Source: Pseudofrankia sp. DC12 (lineage in GTDB: Bacteria; Actinomycetota; Actinomycetes; Frankiales; Frankiaceae). Taken from it: a DNA stretch of 64,000 nt. Positions 27,631-51,307 of this stretch are shown piece by piece. The translations under genes and the position numbers were made by a program. Within the stretch, counting starts at the first letter, position 1, and every line of letters starts with the position of its first letter. The notes beneath the pieces are model-generated. The model searched no databases, was not told where the DNA came from, and saw only the letters and a program-made list of their open reading frames with translations. Location: assembly GCF_000966285.1 (NCBI RefSeq), contig NZ_KQ031391.1, forward strand, positions 2,701,208-2,765,207, in the 5' to 3' direction.

Positions 27631-27757
27631 TCTGCTGGCAACTCGGATCGCCGTGCACCGCCGCATGACCGGGCACCTGGCGGGTGTAGCCATTGGGCCG
27701 GATCCGCAGCCACGGGAGGGCGCCGGGTAGCCGGCGGGAGTCTCACCCGCCGGCCCC

Positions 27758-27798
27758 CACAGATCCGGACGTGAGCCTCTCGACTCATCCGGCTCGTG
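27758..27798 (-). ncRNA. Group II intron domain V
   Basis: Leftward strand: GAGCCGGATGAG, a TCGAGA loop region, then GGCTCACGTCCGGATCTG, forming the conserved 34-nt-type hairpin with the AGC catalytic triad and a two-base bulge (CG before TCCGGAT). The stop codon of the reverse transcriptase (27785-27787) lies inside the 5' strand of this hairpin. Confidence 0.8.
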
Positions 27799-29092: not shown

Positions 29093-29750
29093 ATTGTCAC
29101 CGGACAGCCCGCCCCCTTCGCTCCACCCCCATTACAGGAGTCTCCGCGCTACTACGAGGCGGTCCGCCCCTTCCGTTTCCACCTTCGGTACTCTGTCCTC
29201 ACGGATTCCGCCGCTTGGAGTTCTCCCTCACCCACGCCATACTCGACGCGAGACGTGGCATACGGAAAGTTCCCACGTTCCACACGGAAGCCCGGACCGG
29301 GCTCGCGCCACCTGCATGCCGGACGCCGTCTGGGCAGTAGACGGGTAACCCCCAGACTCATCCCGAAGCCGTTTCACTGCCCCGGTTCTGACGCCATCCA
29401 CATCTTTTCGACACTTCAACGGTGGTTCGCTCGCGCTCGCCTTCCCGGCCCACACCTGACACGATCACCGCCGCGCCTTTTCCGTCACGCTCACGACCCC
29501 AGCTGTTCGGCTGACGCCGCTGACGGCGGTTTGTGACCACCACCCGCATGGCGATCACGGAGGGCCAACCTCCATCTCCCGTGCAGCACCCCTCCAAAAG
29601 ATCACCGTCTACCTCAGATCGGCGTCTCCCTTCGAGTTCGTGGCGCAACGAAGCAGCGATCATGAACCGCCGAGCCAGCCGGTGGCCGAGCCTCAGCCCG
29701 GCCACCGGCCGGGGCCTTGGCTGCGCGCGGCTGGCGCTGTGGTCCCGGTG

Positions 29751-32804
<3,054 letters not shown>

Positions 32805-32942
32805 TCGGGCCACTCCGGTGGGTCAGGCGGGCCTCGGCTGACGCCGGGCTCCACGTCGGGGCCCAGGGCGGGCGCCCCGGGAGACAACAGCGGCTCCTGC
32901 CGCCCCGCCGGCATTCACCGACGACGCCGGACCGCCTCGTCT

Positions 32943-33168
32943 CCCCCTCTGTCATCGGCCTGAGAGCTTCGCCGGCCCGGAGGCCGGCCCGGACGCGGCT
33001 GGCGCGCCCTGGGAGACCTTCGTGCCCGGCTTGCACCGTCGGCGGGACACCGCGAGGCGTCCGCTTTCCAGAGTTGCCTGACCCGGCGGTTGGGTGCCTG
33101 AGAGTTTGTGGGGAGGTCTTGCTCCTTCGGCGCCACGGGCTGGTTTGCCCGGGACTCTCCCGCACGGG
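32943..33168 (-). promoter_or_regulatory. Tandem glycine riboswitch upstream of gcvP
   Basis: Read leftward, the first aptamer has GTGCGGGAGAGTCC, GGCGCCGAAGGAGCAA and AAACTCTCAGGCACC, and closes with CAACTCTGGAAAGCGG. A second copy follows with GCCGACGGTGCAAGCC, GAAGCTCTCAGG and GACAGAGGGGGA. These are the conserved blocks of both glycine aptamers in the usual order and spacing (about 225 nt in total). In known cases the pair binds glycine and turns on cleavage genes, so gcvP should be induced by excess glycine. The expression platform in the last 139 bp was not resolved. Confidence 0.9.
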
Positions 33169-33510
33169 TGTGAGCGGCACAGTATGCAGTTGGCTTGCAG
33201 GTGATGCTCAGTATCCAGCAACCAGCGCGAGCCTGCCATTAGCTGGCAGCGCCACGGTCGACGGGCCGACTCGGCCCAGAAACGGTCCGTGTGCGATCTG
33301 TAATTCACAGTGCTATTCGTGAGGTGCGCCACATATTCGATCGACGAAGGCGGCGACCGAGAGCCGCGCCCAAACGCGGCTCTGTGTTACGCGGCCCTGG
33401 CTCCTGCAACCCGATCTCGCTGGCCAGGCTTCCGCCCGATGTCACCGAGCGAGCCTATCGGCGCTTCCAGGCCGGGGCCACCGAGCGGCGGTCCGCGAAA
33501 CCAGCTCGCA
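33169..33510. other. Intergenic interval, nothing recognised
   Basis: About 340 bp between the riboswitch and the terminator of the chimera gene. It must hold the gcvP promoter at its left end (an AT-richer stretch runs from about 33296 to 33345). No reading frame with support. Confidence 0.4.
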
Positions 33511-33600: not shown

Positions 33601-35379
33601 TCAGCGCCGGTTGACCTTCTGGATCGCCGCCACCAGCTCGTCCTTCGGCAGCCGGGCCCAGTCGGCGATCGACAGCGCCCGCGCGGCGGACCGCAGGTCG
33701 GCGATGGGCGCCGAACCATCCAGCTGCCCGTGGACGCGATCACCGTAGCCCGGTAGCTGACCGCCGGCCGGCGCCATGAAGCTCATACCGCCGGCCGACG
33801 GGCTCGCCGGGACGGGACGCGGCGGGTTCGGGTCCGGCCCAGGCCGCGAGCCAGTACTCACGGCGGTCGGCCTGGTCGGCCCCTTGAGCTCTGGGGCGAG
33901 CGGTGCGGGCGGCGCGCCGGGCGGCCTGGCAGACCCCGACGGCTTCGGCGGCGCAGGCCCGGGTGAGGCCGGGGTCGACCGAGGCGCTGGGCGCGCCGGG
34001 GCGCCGGGACTCGTCAGCGAAGCCTTCGCATCGGACGGCGGGGCCTTCCGAACCGGAGCCGCGCCGGCGGACGACCGAGCGCCGGCACCGGCGGCCGGCC
34101 TCTCGGCGGCCTTCTCGCGAACCACGGGCTTCTCAACGACCTTCTCGACAACGATCGGCCTCTCAACGATCTTCTCCCTGAAGACGGGCTTCTCGACAAT
34201 CTTCTCGACGACCACCGGCCGTTCGACGACCTTCTCCGTCACCACCGGCTTCTCGATCTCGATGACGACCGGCCTTTCGACGATCTTCTGCCGGATGACC
34301 GGCTTCTCGACCTCGATGTCAAAGGGCCGCTCGACAATCTTCCGGCGCAGCACCGGCTTCTCGACCTCGATGACGACCGGCTTCTCCACGACCTTCTGGC
34401 GCAGAACGGGCCGTTCGATCTCGACGACGACCGGCTTGACGACGGCCTTCGGCTTCAGCACCGGCATCTCGATCTCGACGACGACCGGCTTCTCGACGGC
34501 CTTCACGGTCGGCGCCTGGCCTGCGGCCGGCCGGCGGCCAGACGATGCCGATGATTTCGCGGCGGATACCGATCTGCCGGCCGCGGCCGGTCTCCCGCGC
34601 GGCGCCGCCTTACCAGCTGATCCGGACTTTCCGGCGGCTACCGACCCGCCACCCGACGCCGACTTGCCAGCCGGCGCGGACCTGCCACTCGATGCCGACT
34701 TGCTCGCTGGGGCGGACTTTCCGGTGGAGGCGGATTTGCCGCCTGACGGGGAGTTGCCCGCCGGGGCGGACTTTCCGGTGGAGGCGGGCTTGGCGGCCGC
34801 CGCTGACTTGCCGCTCGCCGCCCGGGGCGGCGAGCTCGGACGTGCCGCCGGCCTGGCGGCTGAGGATGCGCGGGCCGTCGACCGGGCGGATGAGCTGGCC
34901 CGCGCCGCGGGCTTCGCCGGCGCGGGACGCGTGGACGGCGCCCGGGCTGCCGGCTTCGTCGCCGCTGTCGAGGCGCGGGGAGCCGAGGTCCTGCGGGAGG
35001 AGGACGCGGCCGACGGCGCGGCGGGCCGGACCGTTCCGGACCGCTTCGCCGACGTCGTCTTGGGCGCGGGAGCCGACCTGTCGGCCAGTGGCTTGATGGC
35101 GCCGCCCGAGACCGTGGCCCGCGGCTGACGGGACCGGGTCGTGGCTGGCTTCGCCGCCGCAGGCGGGGCGGCAGGCCGCTGCTCCCAGTGGTCTCCGACC
35201 TTCTCGTGCGTGTGCCGCAGCTTGGCATAGGCGACGAGGTTCGCGCGCTGGCCCGCTCCGAGCTCGTTGACGGCAGCGTCGTGTGCCTTCTTCCAGGCCA
35301 CCACGGTCGCGTCGTCGGACTTGGCGATCGCCGATGGCACGCCTGCGCGCAGCTTGTCGGTCGTCGTCTTCGTCGCCAT
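33601..35379 (-). CDS. ChaB-like / histone H1-like / KPVV-repeat / Rho_N chimera
   Basis: 592 residues. Residues 1-65 resemble ChaB (AKSDDATVVAWKKAHDAAV, then AYAKLRHTHEKVGDHWEQR). Residues 65-285 are a Lys/Ala/Ser/Pro/Arg tail with many GKSAPAGKSAS-type steps, like eukaryotic H1 and actinobacterial nucleoid proteins. Residues 290-430 are a charged beta-type repeat of about 16-18 residues (EKPVVIEVEKPVLRRKIVE and variants, seven or more copies). A Pro-rich spacer follows, and the last 40 residues form a Rho N-terminal (SAP-like) domain, ADLRSAARALSIADWARLPK. Rho_N and the basic tail suggest nucleic acid binding; the repeat could self-assemble. The ATG at 35379 is chosen because AAGAGG lies before it; two codons upstream are possible. 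Function is unknown. Monocistronic, with a strong terminator. Confidence 0.8.
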   Translation of the reverse strand: MATKTTTDKLRAGVPSAIAKSDDATVVAWKKAHDAAVNELGAGQRANLVAYAKLRHTHEKVGDHWEQRPAAPPAAAKPATTRSRQPRATVSGGAIKPLADRSAPAPKTTSAKRSGTVRPAAPSAASSSRRTSAPRASTAATKPAARAPSTRPAPAKPAARASSSARSTARASSAARPAARPSSPPRAASGKSAAAAKPASTGKSAPAGNSPSGGKSASTGKSAPASKSASSGRSAPAGKSASGGGSVAAGKSGSAGKAAPRGRPAAAGRSVSAAKSSASSGRRPAAGQAPTVKAVEKPVVVEIEMPVLKPKAVVKPVVVEIERPVLRQKVVEKPVVIEVEKPVLRRKIVERPFDIEVEKPVIRQKIVERPVVIEIEKPVVTEKVVERPVVVEKIVEKPVFREKIVERPIVVEKVVEKPVVREKAAERPAAGAGARSSAGAAPVRKAPPSDAKASLTSPGAPARPAPRSTPASPGPAPPKPSGSARPPGAPPAPLAPELKGPTRPTAVSTGSRPGPDPNPPRPVPASPSAGGMSFMAPAGGQLPGYGDRVHGQLDGSAPIADLRSAARALSIADWARLPKDELVAAIQKVNRR

Positions 35380-35388
35380 CTGCATCAC

Positions 35389-35725
35389 CTCTTGGCTATG
35401 GGCATCGAGATCGCTGGGAGCTGGATTTCCCTGGCGCAGGAATCAAAGTCCGCGGCCGCCGGGCCCCGCGGATCGATCCTGGGCGCCTTGGGCGCTCCGC
35501 CGGCGACCCGATAGGGCTGTTCTTCCGGCGAGCCCCGCGTGTTCCGCCGAGCCCCGCGCCGTCCGCGGTCGACAGACGATCGGCACCACGTCCCTGCCTG
35601 CGTGTCGAGTGTCCTCATCGGTCCCGACCCGTTGTCGGGCGTTCTCGTTGTCGGTGCGTTCCCGGCTCGCGCATCGCAAACCGCGACCCGACCGCCGCAT
35701 GCCGCGAACCCGCGGCCGGCTCAGG
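35389..35725. other. Intergenic interval, nothing recognised
   Basis: About 340 bp between the chimera gene and the small basic protein gene on the same strand. It contains a GC-rich inverted repeat (ccgcggccgccgggccccgcgg near 35450) but no supported reading frame. Confidence 0.4.
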
Positions 35726-35986
35726 TCAGGTGAGCTCATCGGCGCCCGCCTTGGCGGCCTCCACCTCCGTGGCCGCACCATCTCGCTCCCGCTCGAAGAA
35801 GGGCTCGACCGCCCGGTCGGACGCGGTCTGCCGGAACACCTGCCGGGTCATCTCCTGGTCGGTCGCGCCCTCACCGGCTTCGGCCGTCCTGCCGCGGGCC
35901 GGCCCGGCCGCGGTCTTGCTGGAGCGGGCGTCGGCCTGTCCGGCGGCCCTTCCCCGGTTGGCCGGCGCGCTGGTCGGAGTCGTCAT
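35726..35986 (-). CDS. Small basic hypothetical protein
   Basis: An 86-residue protein, rich in Ala, Arg and Glu, low-complexity in its first half (TSAPANRGRAAGQADARSS) with a more ordered acidic/helical end (QEMTRQVFRQTASDRAVEPF and FERERDGAATEVEAAKAG). The ATG at 35986 is supported by GGGGAG five bases upstream; the frame is open further upstream but without a site. I do not recognise a family. It is co-directional with the ChaB/Rho_N gene, which shares its bias to Ala/Lys/Arg, so a nucleoid-related role is imaginable but unsupported. Confidence 0.55.
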   Translation of the reverse strand: MTTPTSAPANRGRAAGQADARSSKTAAGPARGRTAEAGEGATDQEMTRQVFRQTASDRAVEPFFERERDGAATEVEAAKAGADELT

Positions 35987-36202
35987 CTCGTCTCCCCTGC
36001 CTGGTCCTGCTTTCACTCTCATGTCGCCAGGTACCCGGCGGTCGGGCTGGTAGCCGGGCTTCGCCGGCCGGCTTGGCCGCTTCGGTGGATTTGAGAACGT
36101 GTGTCCGGTCAAGCCGGAGCGCGGGCCACGTCTGATCGACCAGCGAGCGGACGCGGATCGGCGACGATGACAGGACGGACCACGATGCGGCGAGGAGCAA
36201 CG

Positions 36203-36901
36203 ATGCCGAAGCTGGAGCACGACGGCGAGGTGTACGTGCTGGATCTCGGCGACGGCGAGAACCGGTTCACGAAGGACTGGCTGGCCGAGGTCAATGCCCT
36301 GCTGTCTACGGTCGAGGCGGCGGACGGGCCAAAGGCGCTCGTCACGGTCGCACGTGGAAAGATCTGGTCAAATGGGCTCGACCTGGACTGGATGATCGCC
36401 CATACCGATGAGCTGACCGACTATCTCGGCTCCGTGCAGGCCTTGTTCGCCCGAGTCCTGACACTGCCGCTGGTCACGGTCGCCGCGCTGCAGGGCCATG
36501 CCTTCGCCGGTGGCGCCATGCTCGGGCTCGCGCATGACTTCCAGGTGATGCGGGCCGACCGCGGTTTCTGGTGCCTACCCGAGGTCGATCTGCGGCTTCC
36601 GTTCTCTGTCGGCATGTCCAGCCTGATCTCCGCGCGGCTGCCGGCCAGGACCGCGGCCGAGGCGATGGTCACCGGTCGCCGGTACGGCGGCACTGAGGCC
36701 CTGGCCGCCGGTATCGTCGACGCCGTCGCCGCGGCCGGTGTCACGGACGTCGGCGAGGCGCAACGGGCGATCGAGACCACGGCCGTCGAGATCGCCCGGC
36801 CGCTCACCGGGAAGGCCTCACCGGCCCTCGGCGTCATCAAGTCCCGCCTGCACGCGGCGACCGTGGCGGCCCTGCACGCGATGGAGCAGGTAGGCCTTTA
36901 G
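36203..36901 (+). CDS. Enoyl-CoA hydratase/isomerase family (ECI-like) protein
   Basis: A 232-residue crotonase-fold protein. The oxyanion-hole segment is ALQGHAFAGGAMLGLAHDFQ, and the single acidic residue in position is the Glu of CLPEVDLRLP. Hydratases carry two catalytic glutamates; here the first position (the AGGAM stretch) has none. That one-glutamate pattern, together with HDFQVMRADRGFWCLPEVD, matches delta3,delta2-enoyl-CoA isomerases, which move a double bond during beta-oxidation of unsaturated fatty acids. The ATG at 36203 follows AGGAG by five bases. It faces the transglutaminase operon (22 bp between stops) and has no obvious partner gene. Confidence is high for the fold and moderate for isomerase activity. 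Confidence 0.83.
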   Translation: MPKLEHDGEVYVLDLGDGENRFTKDWLAEVNALLSTVEAADGPKALVTVARGKIWSNGLDLDWMIAHTDELTDYLGSVQALFARVLTLPLVTVAALQGHAFAGGAMLGLAHDFQVMRADRGFWCLPEVDLRLPFSVGMSSLISARLPARTAAEAMVTGRRYGGTEALAAGIVDAVAAAGVTDVGEAQRAIETTAVEIARPLTGKASPALGVIKSRLHAATVAALHAMEQVGL

Positions 36902-36923: not shown

Positions 36924-39900
36924 TCAGCCTCTCGGCAGCGGCGGGCGGCCGGTGAGAACCGCTCGCGGCGACAGCCGCGCGGTCAGCCGGTGACGCCAGG
37001 GCGTGGACCGCCAGGCCGCCTGCTCGACCGTGCGCGCGAGCCGGCGAGCCTCGCCGGCCGACCGGCGACCGGCCGCGCCGTCCCAACCCGGCGCGCCCGT
37101 CATCGTCGAGTCAGCGCCGCCCGGTCCAGCCGGCGACGCGAGCGAACCTGTCGGCCCACCGGACCCGTCGCGCGGCAACGCAAGCGGACCCGTGCGGCCG
37201 GAGGTCAGCCCCAGCCGGCCGGTCCGTCGGCCATCGGCCAGCGCCCCCGGTCCCGGGCGGCCAGCCGCCGGTCCGGTCTGGCCAGTCGTGACCGGGAAAC
37301 CGGCCAGCCCACGCGGGACCCGGCCGGCCGCGTGCGTCGGGCCGTGCCGATGGGTCGGCATCGGGCCACTGCCCGGCACCGGCACCACCGTCGCGCCGGC
37401 TACCAGCACGGCTCCAGCCGTGCCCTCGGGCCGGCCGGCACCGTCATCCGGTCCGAACAGGGCGAGCGTGGCCAGGTGCGCGAGACCACGCAGCGCGCTC
37501 ATGCTGGCGCCCGCCCCGGCCGCGCCCGCCCGCCTGCCGTCGGCACGTTCACCTCCGACGGCCTGCGCGCCGAGCTCGACGACCTCGGCAGGGCTAGCCG
37601 AGGCCGGTACGGGCACGCCCACAGCCAGGAGCGCGTCGACCGCGTGCTCCCAGGCCAGGACGACCCGTTCCCGAGGCGAGTGCCGGGCCGACAGCCGCCG
37701 CCGCCGACGTGCCAACGGCCGGCCCAACGCGATCCCGAGATAGCCGGCCGCCAACGCGCCGACGCCCACGGCTACCCACTCGACCAGGCCGCGGAGGTGC
37801 CCGGCACGCCCGGACGGTGCCGCGGCGGCCGCGGCCGGGCGGTTCACGGCCGCCGGAACGGCCAGTGGGCCGCGGACGGCGGCGTCCACCAGCGCCGCCT
37901 GAGCGGCGGACTCGCCCTGGGTGGATCCGGCCAGCGCGGCGCCCTGGGCGTCCACCGCCGACGGCGTCGGGAAGAACGGCAGCCAGCCGGCGCCGTCGAA
38001 CCGGACCTCCGCCCAGGCCAGCGCCTGGCGCCCGGTCACCGTCACGGCCGCCGACCCGGCCGGAGCGGCCGGGGTGAACCCGACCACCACGCGGCTCGGC
38101 AGCCCGAGGAGGCGCGCCGCCAGCACGAAGGTCGTCGCGAACTGCTCCGACGTGCCACGCCGCGTGTCGGCGACGAAGTGCTCGACGTGGGCAAGCGAGT
38201 GCCCGGGCGGAACCCGCGGGTCGAACTGGAAATTGGTCGCCAGGTAGTGCTGGAGCAGCGCGGCCTGCTGGAACGGGCCGGTGCCCTGGCCGGCGGCCAC
38301 CCGGGCGAGCGCACGCAGCACCGGCGGCACGTTCGCCGGCACGGCCAGGTATTCGGCGTCCTGGTCGGCGGTCGCCGCGGTGCCGCTGGTCAGCGCCGCG
38401 AGCTGGGCCACCGAGCGCACCGGCGCCGGCCGCGACACCACGGTGAAGCGCTCACCCGTCGTCACGGGCGCCGTCCGCAGCAGCAGCCCGTCCGCCAGGT
38501 CGGCGGCCAGCCCCGCATCCGCGGAAGGGCCGACCTGGACCGGACGGTCGAGCGCCGGCAGCAGCGTCCCGGTCAGCCCGGCGACGGTGAGCTCCTGGGT
38601 GACGGGCGCACCCCCCGTGCTCGGCTGGTCCCGGGCGGCCGTGACGGTCTGACCGACGCGGGTGTAGGGCGCGGACGACGTCCAGTTGGCGCCGTCGAAG
38701 TCGCTGAGCACCGCGAGCCGCAGCGGGACCGGGCCGGCCGACTGGCCGGCCAGCCGGATCGTGAACAGGTTGTCGTCCGGCCGCGCCGTCCAGCCGGCGA
38801 GCTCGGACAGCGGGTTCAGGCCGTCGACCTGGTCGGCCGGGGTCGCCCGGTACGCCCGCGGGTCCACCGGCCCGCCGGCCGCGAAGGCAGCGGGCAGCAG
38901 GGCGCCGGCAGCGACCGCCGCGACGACCACGACGGCCAGCGCCCCCGTCGCTCGGGCCGCCGCGAGCGGCCGTGACGGCCGGCCGGGGCCGAGCGTGATC
39001 CGGATCGGCCCAGCCGGCGCCGAACCGTCCGACCGCTCGCCCGGTGTCGTCCCGCCTGCCGCGGGCCCCAGGGCGAACCCGTCAGCGGTCTGCACCGAGC
39101 GCGGTCCCGTTCCCGGCCGGCCAACCGTGCCGGGCCCGGCTGTTCCCATCGGGGCTACCGGCCGACGGGCGAGCGCCAGCAGGCCGGCCAGGGCCGCGAG
39201 GGCCGCCGCCGGGGCCAGGTTCGACCCAGGCCCCGGCACCGCCGCGGCCGTCGCCGCGAGCAGGCCGAGCAGGGCCGGGCCGGCGGGCAGCAGCCGGGTC
39301 CTGGTCCGCACGACCAGCTCCGCGCCGAGTGCGGCGGCGAGCCAGGTGACCAGGAAGGGCACCACGAGCAGGTCGGCGTCCGCGGGCGCCGGCACGGCTA
39401 CGTCGAGCAGCCGCGTCGGCCCGGCGAGCACTCCCGTCCGGACCTCGGCGAGCCGGGCGACGGGCCCGCCAGCTCCTGCCGTCACAAGCGCCGCCGCCAC
39501 CAGTACGAAACCCGCGGTCCACAGCAACGCGGACAGCGCGAAGGGGGCCGCCCGGCGCCGGCCCAACGAGGCCGCCATGACCAGCAGGACCGGCGCCACG
39601 GCGGCGACCGGGACGAGCAGCCGCAGGTCCGCCGCCGAGAACAGCCGGACGAGCCCCCACCCGTCGACGGCGGCGAGCGCCGCCACCAGCAGAAGCGCCG
39701 CGGCACGCCGACCGGCCGGCTCCGCCGGCGCGGGCGGCTGGGCCGGCCGGCTCCGTGGGAGGAGGCCCGAGCCGGTGCCCGCCCGGCCGGCCGGCGCGTC
39801 GGATCCCGGTCCATGGGCTTCAGGTCCAGGCGCCTGCGGCCCCGGGGCCTCCGGCCCACGAGCCTCGGGTCCCCAGCCGCCCTCGGCCGCGGGCTCCCGC

Positions 39901-40112
39901 GCCGACCGGCCCCGGCCGGCCGGATGACGCGCCGCGGGCAGTGGCGGCACCGGGACGCGCACCGTGTCCGCCTCGGAACGCTGCACGATCGGCACCGTCG
40001 GCGAGGTGGGCCCGTCGACCGGCCGGCCGCTGGGCGTCCCGCGCGGCGAGACGCCCCGCCACTCCCGGCGCCGCGCGTTCTCCACCAGGTCCGGGCGGTC
40101 GGGCCCGCTCAC
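36924..40112 (-). CDS. TgpA-like membrane transglutaminase-fold protein, catalytic triad lost
   Basis: 1062 residues, last gene of a moxR-DUF58 operon. A Pro/Gly-rich leader (about 1-125) is followed by DUF3488 membrane helices (about 130-330, with a long Gly/Pro insertion), a periplasmic region, the transglutaminase core (about 600-710), one more helix and a DUF4129-like cytoplasmic tail. In the core the catalytic positions are replaced: GTSEQFA where GYCEQFA is usual (Cys to Ser), LAWAEV where HAWVEV is usual (His to Leu) and FFPTP where FDPTP is usual (Asp to Phe). The fold is kept (LPSRVVVGF, GWLPF). Start GTG 40112 overlaps the upstream stop in GTGA, a coupling signal. It probably acts as a scaffold of a MoxR-type complex, not as an enzyme. 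Confidence 0.85.
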   Translation of the reverse strand: MSGPDRPDLVENARRREWRGVSPRGTPSGRPVDGPTSPTVPIVQRSEADTVRVPVPPLPAARHPAGRGRSAREPAAEGGWGPEARGPEAPGPQAPGPEAHGPGSDAPAGRAGTGSGLLPRSRPAQPPAPAEPAGRRAAALLLVAALAAVDGWGLVRLFSAADLRLLVPVAAVAPVLLVMAASLGRRRAAPFALSALLWTAGFVLVAAALVTAGAGGPVARLAEVRTGVLAGPTRLLDVAVPAPADADLLVVPFLVTWLAAALGAELVVRTRTRLLPAGPALLGLLAATAAAVPGPGSNLAPAAALAALAGLLALARRPVAPMGTAGPGTVGRPGTGPRSVQTADGFALGPAAGGTTPGERSDGSAPAGPIRITLGPGRPSRPLAAARATGALAVVVVAAVAAGALLPAAFAAGGPVDPRAYRATPADQVDGLNPLSELAGWTARPDDNLFTIRLAGQSAGPVPLRLAVLSDFDGANWTSSAPYTRVGQTVTAARDQPSTGGAPVTQELTVAGLTGTLLPALDRPVQVGPSADAGLAADLADGLLLRTAPVTTGERFTVVSRPAPVRSVAQLAALTSGTAATADQDAEYLAVPANVPPVLRALARVAAGQGTGPFQQAALLQHYLATNFQFDPRVPPGHSLAHVEHFVADTRRGTSEQFATTFVLAARLLGLPSRVVVGFTPAAPAGSAAVTVTGRQALAWAEVRFDGAGWLPFFPTPSAVDAQGAALAGSTQGESAAQAALVDAAVRGPLAVPAAVNRPAAAAAAPSGRAGHLRGLVEWVAVGVGALAAGYLGIALGRPLARRRRRLSARHSPRERVVLAWEHAVDALLAVGVPVPASASPAEVVELGAQAVGGERADGRRAGAAGAGASMSALRGLAHLATLALFGPDDGAGRPEGTAGAVLVAGATVVPVPGSGPMPTHRHGPTHAAGRVPRGLAGFPVTTGQTGPAAGRPGPGALADGRRTGRLGLTSGRTGPLALPRDGSGGPTGSLASPAGPGGADSTMTGAPGWDGAAGRRSAGEARRLARTVEQAAWRSTPWRHRLTARLSPRAVLTGRPPLPRG

Positions 40113-41842
40113 ACGACACCGCCGCCGAAGTAGCCGGCGCGCGCGTTGGACCGCACCCCGGCGGCCCGGCCCCGGCTGCCGACCGGCCAGACCTCGGCCA
40201 GCCGTGCGGCGTCCGGGATGTCCACGACGCGCAGCCGCCCGGCCACGCTGGTACCGATCTCGCTGGGCCGGCCAATCAGGTCGAACCGCCCGAGCAGGGT
40301 CGCGGCGTCGGGCGCCGAGGAGGCGCGGCGCAGCCGGGGCCGGCCGGCCGGCGTCCGCCGGGAGCGGGCCCGGGCGGCCGCCAGGCTGCGGGCACCGACC
40401 CGCACGACCACCACCTGCCCGAAGCGGTGCACCACCGGCGCCACGGCCCGCAGCTGCCCGTCGTCGAAGCCGCCGGTGACCACGACCAGCGTGCCGACGC
40501 CGCCACGGCGCACGGTGCCGAGCACGTCGAGGGTGCCGGCAGGGTCCAGGTCGACCTCCGCGAGGTCGTCGAGCAGCGCGTAGGTCTCCGGCGCCCGGCC
40601 GCGGCCGGGCCGGCGCACCCCGGCGGTGGTGAGCAGCACGACGCCGAGCGACTCCTGGGCGCACCCGAGCAGCACCGACGCGGCGACGTCGACCGCCTCC
40701 TCGAACGTCTCCGCGCCGACCTCGCCGGGCGGGTAGGCCACCGGCCGGGTGTCGAGGACGACTGTCGACGCCGGCTCGCTCGGCTCGACGTGCTCGCGGA
40801 CCATCAGCACGCCGGTCCGGGCGCTGGACGGCCAGTGCACGAAACGCAGGTCCTCGCCGCTGACGTACTCGCGCAGCCCGTGGAAGATCACCCCGCCGGC
40901 GGCGCCGTCGGCCGTCCGCCCGTCCGGGTCACGGGCCGGGGCCGCCGGAGCCGCGCCCAGCGGGACGGCCCGGGGCCGGACCCGCAGGACGTCGGCCGCC
41001 GCGAGCCAGCTGGCGGAGCTGACCAGGCCGAACGGGTCGGACCGGCGGACCAGCACCGGCCCGAAACCGATCATCCCGCGGCGCTGGGTGTCCAGCGGCA
41101 GCTCCAGGGACCGGCTGCTCGCGCCGCCGAGCCGGCGGACATCCACGACGATCGTCCCGCCGGCCCGGGCCCACCGGCGCCGGTCGGCGCCGCTGGTGGG
41201 ACTGGCCTCCTCGATGGATGCCTCAGCGGCCGGTCCCGCGGCTCCTCGCACGGCGGCACCCCGCCCGGCGGGCGAAGTCTGGCCTGCGCGCGCCCCGGCC
41301 CCCGCCCAGCGGGCGTCCCGGACCTCGCCGGCCGTCGCGAGGGCGCGCCGACGCCGGCGGCCAGGCGCCGGGGGGAGGCCGCGTGCGCCGTGGCTCCAGA
41401 GGATCTCCACCCGGACGCGCGGCGACGGCCGCCGGTGCGGGTTGTGCAGCTCGACGACGAGCGCGGCCGGCTCGCCCCGGGGCACCCCACCGGGCCTGAC
41501 CCGCAACGTGGCCCGCAGGCGGGGCCGGCGGGCCACCGCCAGACCGGCGAGCAGCAGTGCGCTGAGCGCCGCCGCGGCCAGCGCTGCGAGCTCGGCGTAG
41601 CGGAGCACGAAGGCACCCGCCGCCAGCACCACGCCGGTGGCGAGCACCCCGACGCCCAGCGGCGTGATCCGGGTGACCACGACCGGCCGCTGCTCGGGCG
41701 TCTCCTGCGCGGCCGCCGCCGGGCCCCCGGCCGCCAGGCCGGCCGAGATCAGCGCGGTCCCCGCATCGCCGGCTGACGACGTCTCGTCCGTCGCCTCCGC
41801 GCCTCGGGCCTTCTCGCTCGCGTCACTTGTTCCCGCGCGCAC
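40109..41842 (-). CDS. DUF58 (vWA-like) protein of the MoxR operon
   Basis: 577 residues. Two membrane helices sit near residues 60-105 (TRITPLGVGVLATGVVLAAG and LAALAAAALSALLLAGLAVA). The DUF58 signature comes at about 290-330: GLREYVSGEDLRFVHWPSSA and RTGVLMVREHV. A vWA-like remainder follows (STVVLDTRPVAY near 340; GGVGTLVVVTGGFDDGQLRA near 450). DUF58 proteins associate with MoxR ATPases and are thought to bind metal or client proteins. The start is GTG 41842, three bases after the moxR stop; the 3' end overlaps the transglutaminase gene by four bases. This gene order (moxR, DUF58, tgpA-like) is conserved widely. A long Ala/Gly/Arg-rich insertion near 180-220 is unusual in length. Confidence 0.9.
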   Translation of the reverse strand: MRAGTSDASEKARGAEATDETSSAGDAGTALISAGLAAGGPAAAAQETPEQRPVVVTRITPLGVGVLATGVVLAAGAFVLRYAELAALAAAALSALLLAGLAVARRPRLRATLRVRPGGVPRGEPAALVVELHNPHRRPSPRVRVEILWSHGARGLPPAPGRRRRRALATAGEVRDARWAGAGARAGQTSPAGRGAAVRGAAGPAAEASIEEASPTSGADRRRWARAGGTIVVDVRRLGGASSRSLELPLDTQRRGMIGFGPVLVRRSDPFGLVSSASWLAAADVLRVRPRAVPLGAAPAAPARDPDGRTADGAAGGVIFHGLREYVSGEDLRFVHWPSSARTGVLMVREHVEPSEPASTVVLDTRPVAYPPGEVGAETFEEAVDVAASVLLGCAQESLGVVLLTTAGVRRPGRGRAPETYALLDDLAEVDLDPAGTLDVLGTVRRGGVGTLVVVTGGFDDGQLRAVAPVVHRFGQVVVVRVGARSLAAARARSRRTPAGRPRLRRASSAPDAATLLGRFDLIGRPSEIGTSVAGRLRVVDIPDAARLAEVWPVGSRGRAAGVRSNARAGYFGGGVV

Positions 41843-50905: not shown

Positions 50906-51307
50906 CACCGATCGGCGCCCTTCCCGGGGCCTGGCGACCGAACGCGAGGCGGCAGCGCGCGACCACTCACCGGGCGGCTGCCGTCCGTCAGGCAGGGGTC
51001 GCCGGGAGCGGTTGCCAGGAGCGAGTCCGGCGACGGCACCAGAATCGTCGGTTCCCGCCGGTAGCATTGTCACGCATTCAGTAGCGACCTCGGCACCGAC
51101 GGCTGAATCTTGCGAGACGTATACGGAGGTTCTAACCTGGCTCGTGGTCAAGAGGACTGCGTCAAGGCCTGGCTCGCCGTCCGGCAACCTTCGCGCAAGG
51201 TGCCCCAGGAACGACCTGATCGCCGCCGGTGACAACTGGTAGCGGTAACGCGGATCTCCCGAACCGGGCACGGTCGCGGGGGTCCACCGAGGCCCCCGGA
51301 GGTTGAC
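50906..51307. other. Intergenic interval with a weak hairpin
   Basis: About 400 bp. A short gggggtccaccgaggccccc hairpin (about 51279-51298) lies just before the ribosome site of the next gene and could be a terminator or attenuator. A 76-codon frame at 51012 lacks support. Confidence 0.4.

Follow-up and report, generated by a model that had tools for sequence, protein, structure and literature searches.

Pseudofrankia sp. DC12 encodes, on the minus strand at 33601..35379 of a 64,000-nucleotide stretch of its genome (the window; contig NZ_KQ031391.1 of assembly GCF_000966285.1, positions 2,701,208 to 2,765,207), a 592-residue protein with an N-terminal ChaB domain, a C-terminal Rho_N-type tail and a long insert between them. 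The insert carries a charged repeat in which acids and bases keep to opposite sequence positions, and both this charge parity and the length of the repeat are kept in the orthologs of two other species. The protein is real, constrained and unusual. We propose, tentatively and at somewhat less than an even chance, that the repeat would self-assemble through two charged faces and so make a ChaB–Rho_N protein multivalent, with the basic part of the insert adding a nucleic-acid contact. The parts of the gene are as follows.

33601..35379, minus strand: expanded ChaB–Rho_N gene, 592 residues, ATG at 35379, with orthologs in two other species
35386..35393, minus strand: likely ribosome-binding site AAGAGGTG, 6 bases before the ATG
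35170..35379, minus strand: ChaB head, residues 1–70 (Pfam ChaB match at residues 26–68), with predicted helices
34507..35169, minus strand: K/R-A-S-P-rich, strongly basic stretch, residues 71–291, defined by composition
34096..34506, minus strand: charged repeat (acid-base-dyad domain), residues 292–428, 137 residues
33724..34095, minus strand: Pro/Ala/Gly-rich linker, residues 429–552, defined by composition
33604..33723, minus strand: Rho_N (SAP-like) tail, residues 553–592, assigned by Pfam and by a short-family profile

Domain assignment and reading frame

A preliminary description of this DNA had reported a ChaB-like head, a Lys/Ala/Ser/Pro stretch, a charged repeat and a Rho_N-type tail, and all four parts were recovered by Pfam, by a tail profile and by composition. 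Pfam ChaB was matched at 29.7 bits against a cut-off of 27 (34.3 bits in the genome search) and at 27.7 and 28.2 bits in the two long orthologs. Pfam Rho_N was matched at the correct place, at 16.7 bits in the window protein and 21.8 and 21.6 bits in the orthologs, under the cut-off of 24.9 in each case. When the C-termini of 54 short ChaB–Rho_N proteins were combined into a profile, it scored 27.5, 33.7 and 35.2 bits against the three long C-termini and at most 7.9 against 3000 shuffled tails; this identifies the tail of the long proteins as a homolog of the short family's Rho_N tail. The full-protein Pfam scan (E up to 1) returned ChaB and Rho_N only, with no histone or HU domain, and NCBIfam gave no match at E up to 1.

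The basic stretch (221 residues, 17.6% K+R, net charge +38) resembles histone H1-like or HU tails in composition only. When the repeat was scanned alone, the Pfam matches were of low complexity and below threshold: Extensin_1 (18.2 bits, cut-off 105), histone-like HC2 (12.9 bits, cut-off 40) and MIP-T3 (12.6 bits, cut-off 23.4). An AlphaFold2 model of the whole protein (two-row alignment) had helices at both ends and nothing ordered between, with 40 residues at a predicted local distance difference test score (pLDDT) of 70–90 and none above.

The reading frame is maintained over 592–663 codons across the three species. Since the orthologs of two other species have preserved the frame, the order of the parts and the length of the repeat, a chance origin of the protein is excluded. 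An ATG-started plus-strand frame of 450 residues lies opposite the gene, and the protein might be only the shadow of a gene read from that strand. We find this barely credible: the antisense frame has no Pfam match at E up to 0.1 while the minus-strand protein has ChaB and Rho_N, its counterpart in one ortholog is cut to 316 codons, and substitutions in the closest ortholog pair favour third positions of the minus frame (3/3/17 in the repeat).

Charge parity of the repeat

The repeat begins with five double units of 18 residues, after which come steps of 10 residues. In the window protein it contains 16 [KRM]P pairs; spacings of 8 or 10 place 15 of them in register, and the remaining pair is off. 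Numbered along the repeat, all acids of the window protein fall at even positions (25/25) and nearly all bases at odd positions (30/31); the corresponding counts are 25/25 and 31/33 in one ortholog (L028) and 25/25 and 31/32 in the other (L029). In none of the three long proteins did any of 5000 shuffles reach so high a value. The other regions of the window protein follow no such rule. The spacings between successive acid-base dyads were even throughout the three repeats (17/17, 18/18 and 18/18), as against 31/106 in a control made up of the neighbouring gcvP, hydratase and transglutaminase-like proteins and the 54 short proteins, a set composed mostly of homologs and thus not of 59 independent cases.

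In a beta-strand, even and odd residues point opposite ways. With this parity the repeat, if it were a beta-strand, would therefore have one acidic and one basic face. Charge parity is thus a sharp rule, which a register shift of one residue would break at constant composition.

The same arrangement could allow the acidic face to fold back on the protein's own basic stretch, giving self-inhibition and salt- or signal-dependent DNA binding. A stretch of net charge +38 does adjoin a repeat whose 25 acids all share one register; the repeat itself is slightly positive (+6), however, and the length of the stretch varies where that of the repeat does not. We judge such fold-back to be quite improbable.

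Constraint on the repeat

Free variation of the repeat among relatives, an outcome considered in the preliminary description, was not what was found. The repeat is 137 residues long in all three orthologs, with no gap column in any of the three pairwise alignments, and its net charge stays between +6 and +8. The basic stretch measures 221, 283 and 254 residues, with 35–66 gap columns, and the Pro-rich linker also varies in length, less than the basic stretch. Within the repeat the three pairs differ by 24, 23 and 4 amino-acid changes, of which 16, 15 and 3 are V/I, K/R or E/D swaps; such swaps make up 25% of uniformly random nonsynonymous single-base changes, a null that ignores transition bias. 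For the closest ortholog pair the ratio of nonsynonymous to synonymous substitution rates (dN/dS) was 0.07 in the repeat and 0.46 in the basic stretch (Fisher p = 0.004, from rounded substitution counts and in one of three pairs tested). Across the three long orthologs the ChaB head gave 0.10–0.18.

Over the five 18-residue units, identity between orthologous positions was 87%, against 63% between units within one protein. Since orthologous units are more alike than those of one protein, the copies predate the species split and have not exchanged since. A neutral low-complexity expansion with no function would suit the repetitive, G+C-rich DNA and a basic stretch whose length is still changing; the frame kept over so many codons in three species and an array frozen without turnover make it very unlikely.

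A stiff or entropic spacer between the basic stretch and Rho_N, its composition kept for solubility and charge balance and with no assembly, would also answer to part of these data. No ordered structure is predicted for the repeat, its net charge is near neutral, and the changes preserve composition. A spacer, on the other hand, needs neither exact length nor even spacing nor acid/base parity, and the spacer-like flanks (the basic stretch and, less so, the Pro-rich linker) vary in length. We regard the spacer as possible, although unlikely on balance.

Origin of the gene at the gcvP locus

ChaB was detected in 127/393 genomes of the class, 24/35 of the family and 8/8 of the genus. From these, 57 ChaB loci were extracted (27 at the family level and 30 at the class level), three of them the long genes and 54 short genes; the 30 class-level short proteins are the best-scoring places and no random draw. 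Every short protein examined (54/54; about 110–185 residues) carries both ChaB and Rho_N, and the two domains are therefore a standard actinobacterial pair. The preliminary description had taken the domain order for an undescribed one; this view is not supported, as the window gene is a positional ortholog of these short genes with an insert. Judged on sequence, the novelty is what lies between ChaB and Rho_N, and the terminal pairing itself is ordinary. The expanded architecture was not seen among the open-licence papers listed on ChaB proteins and on alveolins, articulins and epiplastins, as judged by titles.

The neighbours of the window gene that serve in the comparison are listed here.

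29751..32813, minus strand: gcvP, downstream neighbour and synteny marker (Pfam GDC-P)
35726..36220, minus strand: small reading frame upstream, synteny marker, with its C-terminal part conserved at the same place in the genus and no Pfam match at E up to 0.1
36101..36901, plus strand: enoyl-CoA hydratase/isomerase (crotonase), upstream neighbour and synteny marker (Pfam ECH_1)
36924-40664: TgpA-type transglutaminase-like protein, two genes upstream of the long gene

Long forms occur in 3/8 genus genomes (the window genome, G002 and Frankia sp. AgB1.9, G006) and are confined to one genus among the genomes searched. Five further genomes of the genus (loci L030, L031, L032, L033 and L035) have a short ChaB–Rho_N gene at the same place, by gcvP and/or the crotonase gene. 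The order hydratase, small frame, ChaB–Rho_N, gcvP is the same at the long locus as at the short loci L031, L032 and L033. At L035 gcvP and the small frame are kept and no hydratase was matched; at L030 the hydratase is present and the contig ends soon after the ChaB gene. In G006 (L029) the contig that carries the long gene does not reach gcvP. A locus of a different genus, L037, has the hydratase, the ChaB gene and gcvP together in one stretch, with gcvP inverted. Neither flank was found at L034, L036, L038, L039 or L040. The protein start MATKTTTD is common to the window protein and the short protein of Frankia nepalensis CN7 (G003), and the bases before the ATG of these two genes are identical at 17/20 positions, but at only 33/60 over the longer span.

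In a midpoint-rooted tree of 32 rows the three long genes formed a single clade (100/100), whose stem measured 1.16 changes per column. This clade was nested among the syntenic short genes of the genus (94/91) and stood beside F. nepalensis with weak support (86/52). A long-gene clade on a long stem inside syntenic short genes indicates one insertion, with ends that changed fast and then more slowly. Gene order and tree thus support a single origin of the window gene as a positional ortholog of the short ChaB–Rho_N gene with an insert of about 450 residues. A domain expansion of this size has been caught at an identified locus, where sister species retain the gene without the insert.

The window genome (G000) and G002 each hold a second, canonical short ChaB–Rho_N gene at another locus; in G006 no second short copy was found in the genome search. 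The open frames around the second copies are given below.

L039 8797-9786, minus strand: open frame around a second short copy
L040 8852-10423, minus strand: open frame around a second short copy

The second copies group with short genes of another genus (98/91), apart from the syntenic copy, and such a spare copy may have freed the syntenic one to change. Syntenic short genes of three other genus species (L007, L008 and L010) have N-terminal low-complexity extensions of their own, rich in K/T/S/P (for example SSPAKTTTRSS repeats), so that tail growth at this locus is recurrent.

Distribution of the repeat and giant proteins of genus g81

No second copy of the repeat was found in the window genome at E up to 1, no solved structure matched it at E up to 1, and no plasmid relative appeared at E 1e-3, a search in which the BLAST low-complexity filter may hide some. 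In the class, 8/393 genomes gave a match, comprising the three long genes, two giant proteins and three weak matches. In the phylum the count was 8/396: the window gene, one giant, one of the weak class matches again and five new weak ones. Those of the weak matches that were inspected proved to be either simple repeats of PV or RPVL type or frames that lack acid-base-dyad character.

The giants are V-E-K-P repeat proteins present in 16/59 species of an actinobacterial genus (g81, family f4). Their open frames span 862–1047 residues in 14/16 genomes, those of the remaining two being split or at contig ends. One example is given below, and further ones are at L085–L095.

L084 1483-3804, plus strand: giant repeat protein (G155:C1, 831767 onward)

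The giants are nearly all repeat, are acidic in the two measured (net −61 and −63) and fit the epiplastin composition described below. No ChaB or Rho_N was found in the stretch of giant scanned. In 12 fetched stretches 991/993 dyad spacings were even, with lengths of 4, 6, 8, 10, 12, 14, 16, 18, 20, 22, 30 and 32; because the lengths are so many, the even-spacing rule in the giants is no echo of one unit. Short stretches of giants and window repeat can be aligned (70% over 54 residues, E 1.4e-6), and the parity rule that they share may reflect descent or convergence.

The Pfam alveolin family IMCp (PF12314) was matched over its cut-off by the L084 giant in a direct scan and in 4/4 g81 genomes tested, with best E-values of 5e-4 to 0.009. 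A search of 396 phylum genomes for IMCp returned none at E ≤ 0.001, a limit that would hide the g81 giants. Three archaeal control genomes were matched too in the genome scan (E up to 1), below the cut-off. We know of no report of alveolin-like proteins in Actinobacteria. None was seen among the titles of the alveolin, articulin and epiplastin literature, in which no search was aimed at that question.

Composition compared with epiplastins

The criteria for acid-base-dyad (epiplastin) domains are their composition together with a predicted beta-strand (Goodenough et al., 2018, PMC6212826). The window repeat consists of V 29.2%, I 8.8%, L 2.2%, E 17.5%, K 13.9%, R 8.8%, D 0.7%, A 2.9% and T 0.7%, with neither G nor S; 40.9% of its residues are charged, with a net charge of +6. 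All these values lie within two standard deviations (SD) of the epiplastin means of that paper, A being at the edge (1 ± 1). The net charge is somewhat more basic than the −9 ± 13 given there for domains described as nearly neutral or negative. When a filter of about the epiplastin mean ± 2 SD, with A allowed to 4%, was applied to 3076 open frames at 101 loci, only the long proteins and the giants passed; the loci were not random, many having been fetched for similarity to the repeat or to giants. IMCp was not matched at E up to 1 by the whole window protein, by the repeat alone or in the genomes G000 and G002. The likeness to alveolins noted in the preliminary description thus stands for composition and fails as family membership, since the epiplastin profile fits and IMCp does not.

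A text search of PMC6212826 for alternation, amphipathicity, opposite faces, salt bridges and electrostatics found nothing. One example string in the paper breaks the parity rule by manual count, and for this reason the rule is not claimed for epiplastins generally. The repeat possibly works like an alveolin domain.

The repeat could instead bind another protein, such as a filament, membrane or envelope part, and act as a nucleoid-to-envelope tether with no self-assembling scaffold. Alveolin domains are described in PMC12465100 as recruiting partners and other alveolins, a beta-ribbon could join the sheet of a partner, and the second gene upstream codes for a TgpA-type transglutaminase-like protein. 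Against this, the window genome holds no second such repeat that could be found, and there is no obvious filament partner among the four neighbours scanned (gcvP, hydratase, small frame and TgpA-type protein). We consider a tether improbable.

Proposed mechanism

The self-assembly model introduced at the outset starts from the ordinary ChaB–Rho_N protein of the crotonase–gcvP locus, enlarged once in an ancestor of the three Frankia-like species, as gene order and tree support. Its folded ends would contact nucleic acid, or protein on nucleic acid, and its disordered basic stretch would hold DNA or RNA non-specifically. A nuclear magnetic resonance (NMR) study assigned the ChaB fold to the cyclin-box class, whose members bind proteins and nucleic acids; the NMR authors caution that this class does not define the role of ChaB (PMC514712). 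The 137-residue repeat may form extended beta-strands, as a two-faced beta-ribbon, and the strands could stack face to face between molecules. By such ionic self-complementary assembly a protein that binds as a monomer would become multivalent, as a condensate or scaffold on RNA or on the nucleoid, with compaction or stress protection as conceivable roles. Ionic self-complementary assembly of this type is familiar from EAK-type designed peptides, which serve here as an analogy.

There are no more than hints of a stress role for a ChaB-type protein. The SigF regulon elements listed for Mycobacterium smegmatis in PMC11303327 include a ChaB family protein, and one from Curtobacterium is induced at low water content, where the authors count it as an ion transporter (PMC12029717).

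Several observations weigh against self-assembly through charged faces. The dN/dS of the repeat was 0.30 and 0.33 in both pairs that include the window protein, with 0.40 and 0.44 in the basic stretch and no significant difference between them, and the Rho_N tail, at 0.19–0.51, showed no strong conservation. The hydrophobic residues do not simply alternate, their lag-2 autocorrelation being below chance in all three repeats. An even-period tandem array inherits the parity of its founder, so the rule in the window protein reflects few independent events. AlphaFold2 gave no secondary structure for the lone repeat (one-row alignment; mean pLDDT 43) and neither strand nor helix for the repeat within the whole protein (pLDDT about 31–47 over both runs); the lone alveolin domains of three Plasmodium proteins likewise model without ordered structure, according to PMC12465100. 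Among the giants, 52/173 inferred gaps were of odd length, 369 aligned columns flipped sign and 214/1057 charge gains or losses broke parity, counts taken over all 66 pairwise alignments, which overlap and contain some repeat misalignment. ChaB is not mentioned in the main text of the Frankia alni proteogenome paper (PMC8951365).

A wider hypothesis would take in the giants as well. Actinobacteria would carry charge-parity repeats that form two-faced beta-ribbons and polymerize like alveolins and articulins; one such repeat would have been inserted into a Frankia-like ChaB–Rho_N protein as a nucleic-acid-tethered filament or condensate, and the giants elsewhere would be a free-standing, skeleton-like polymer. 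We hold this to be doubtful. If the reading proposed for the window protein is right, it ties a sequence character of protist membrane skeletons to a bacterial protein associated with nucleic acid, and it offers a simple, testable domain of 137 residues for studying the assembly of alveolin-type repeats, which is an open question.

Other elements in the window

The interval from the ChaB gene to gcvP contains a glycine riboswitch aptamer (RF00504, 45.6 bits) at 33077-33172 on the minus strand. It lies on the same strand as gcvP and is the leader expected for that gene. Downstream of gcvP, group II intron matches (RF00029, RF01999) were found at 27722-27797 and 29454-29573, both on the minus strand; they span about 1.9 kb end to end and are perhaps the two ends of one intron. 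A SAM-IV riboswitch (RF00634, 59.1 bits) lies at 51146-51256 on the plus strand.

Comparison with known systems

The nearest known system is the actinobacterial ChaB–Rho_N protein (PF06150 + PF07498), with which the window protein shares the terminal domains, the gene neighbourhood and the tree. The window protein differs in having about 450 extra residues between the domains and in a more divergent ChaB and Rho_N. Against the PDB, the short-family profile matched E. coli ChaB (1SG7, E 1e-5), and its Rho_N end weakly matched the N-terminus of Rho (3l0o, E 0.0074). E. coli ChaB belongs to the same head family, but is described in PMC514712 as a small, stand-alone putative antiporter regulator, with neither insert nor Rho_N.

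With the epiplastins (alveolins, articulins and plateins) the repeat shares acid-base dyads, V+I of 38%, 41% charged residues, the lack of G and S and low A and T; like them, it is flanked by G/A/S/T-rich regions. Its period differs, with steps of 8 or 10 (units of 18–20) against the 12 reported for alveolins and articulins in PMC4303705, and strict charge parity and fusion to nucleic-acid-type domains set it further apart. Among bacteria, epiplastin-like domains are found in the articulin-like proteins of Caulobacter, for which PMC6212826 describes an abundance of VPV and VYV modules, whereas the window repeat has no VPV and no Y; IMCp matched Caulobacter vibrioides among the control genomes. 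The g81 giants pass the same composition filter as the window repeat and follow nearly the same even-spacing parity.

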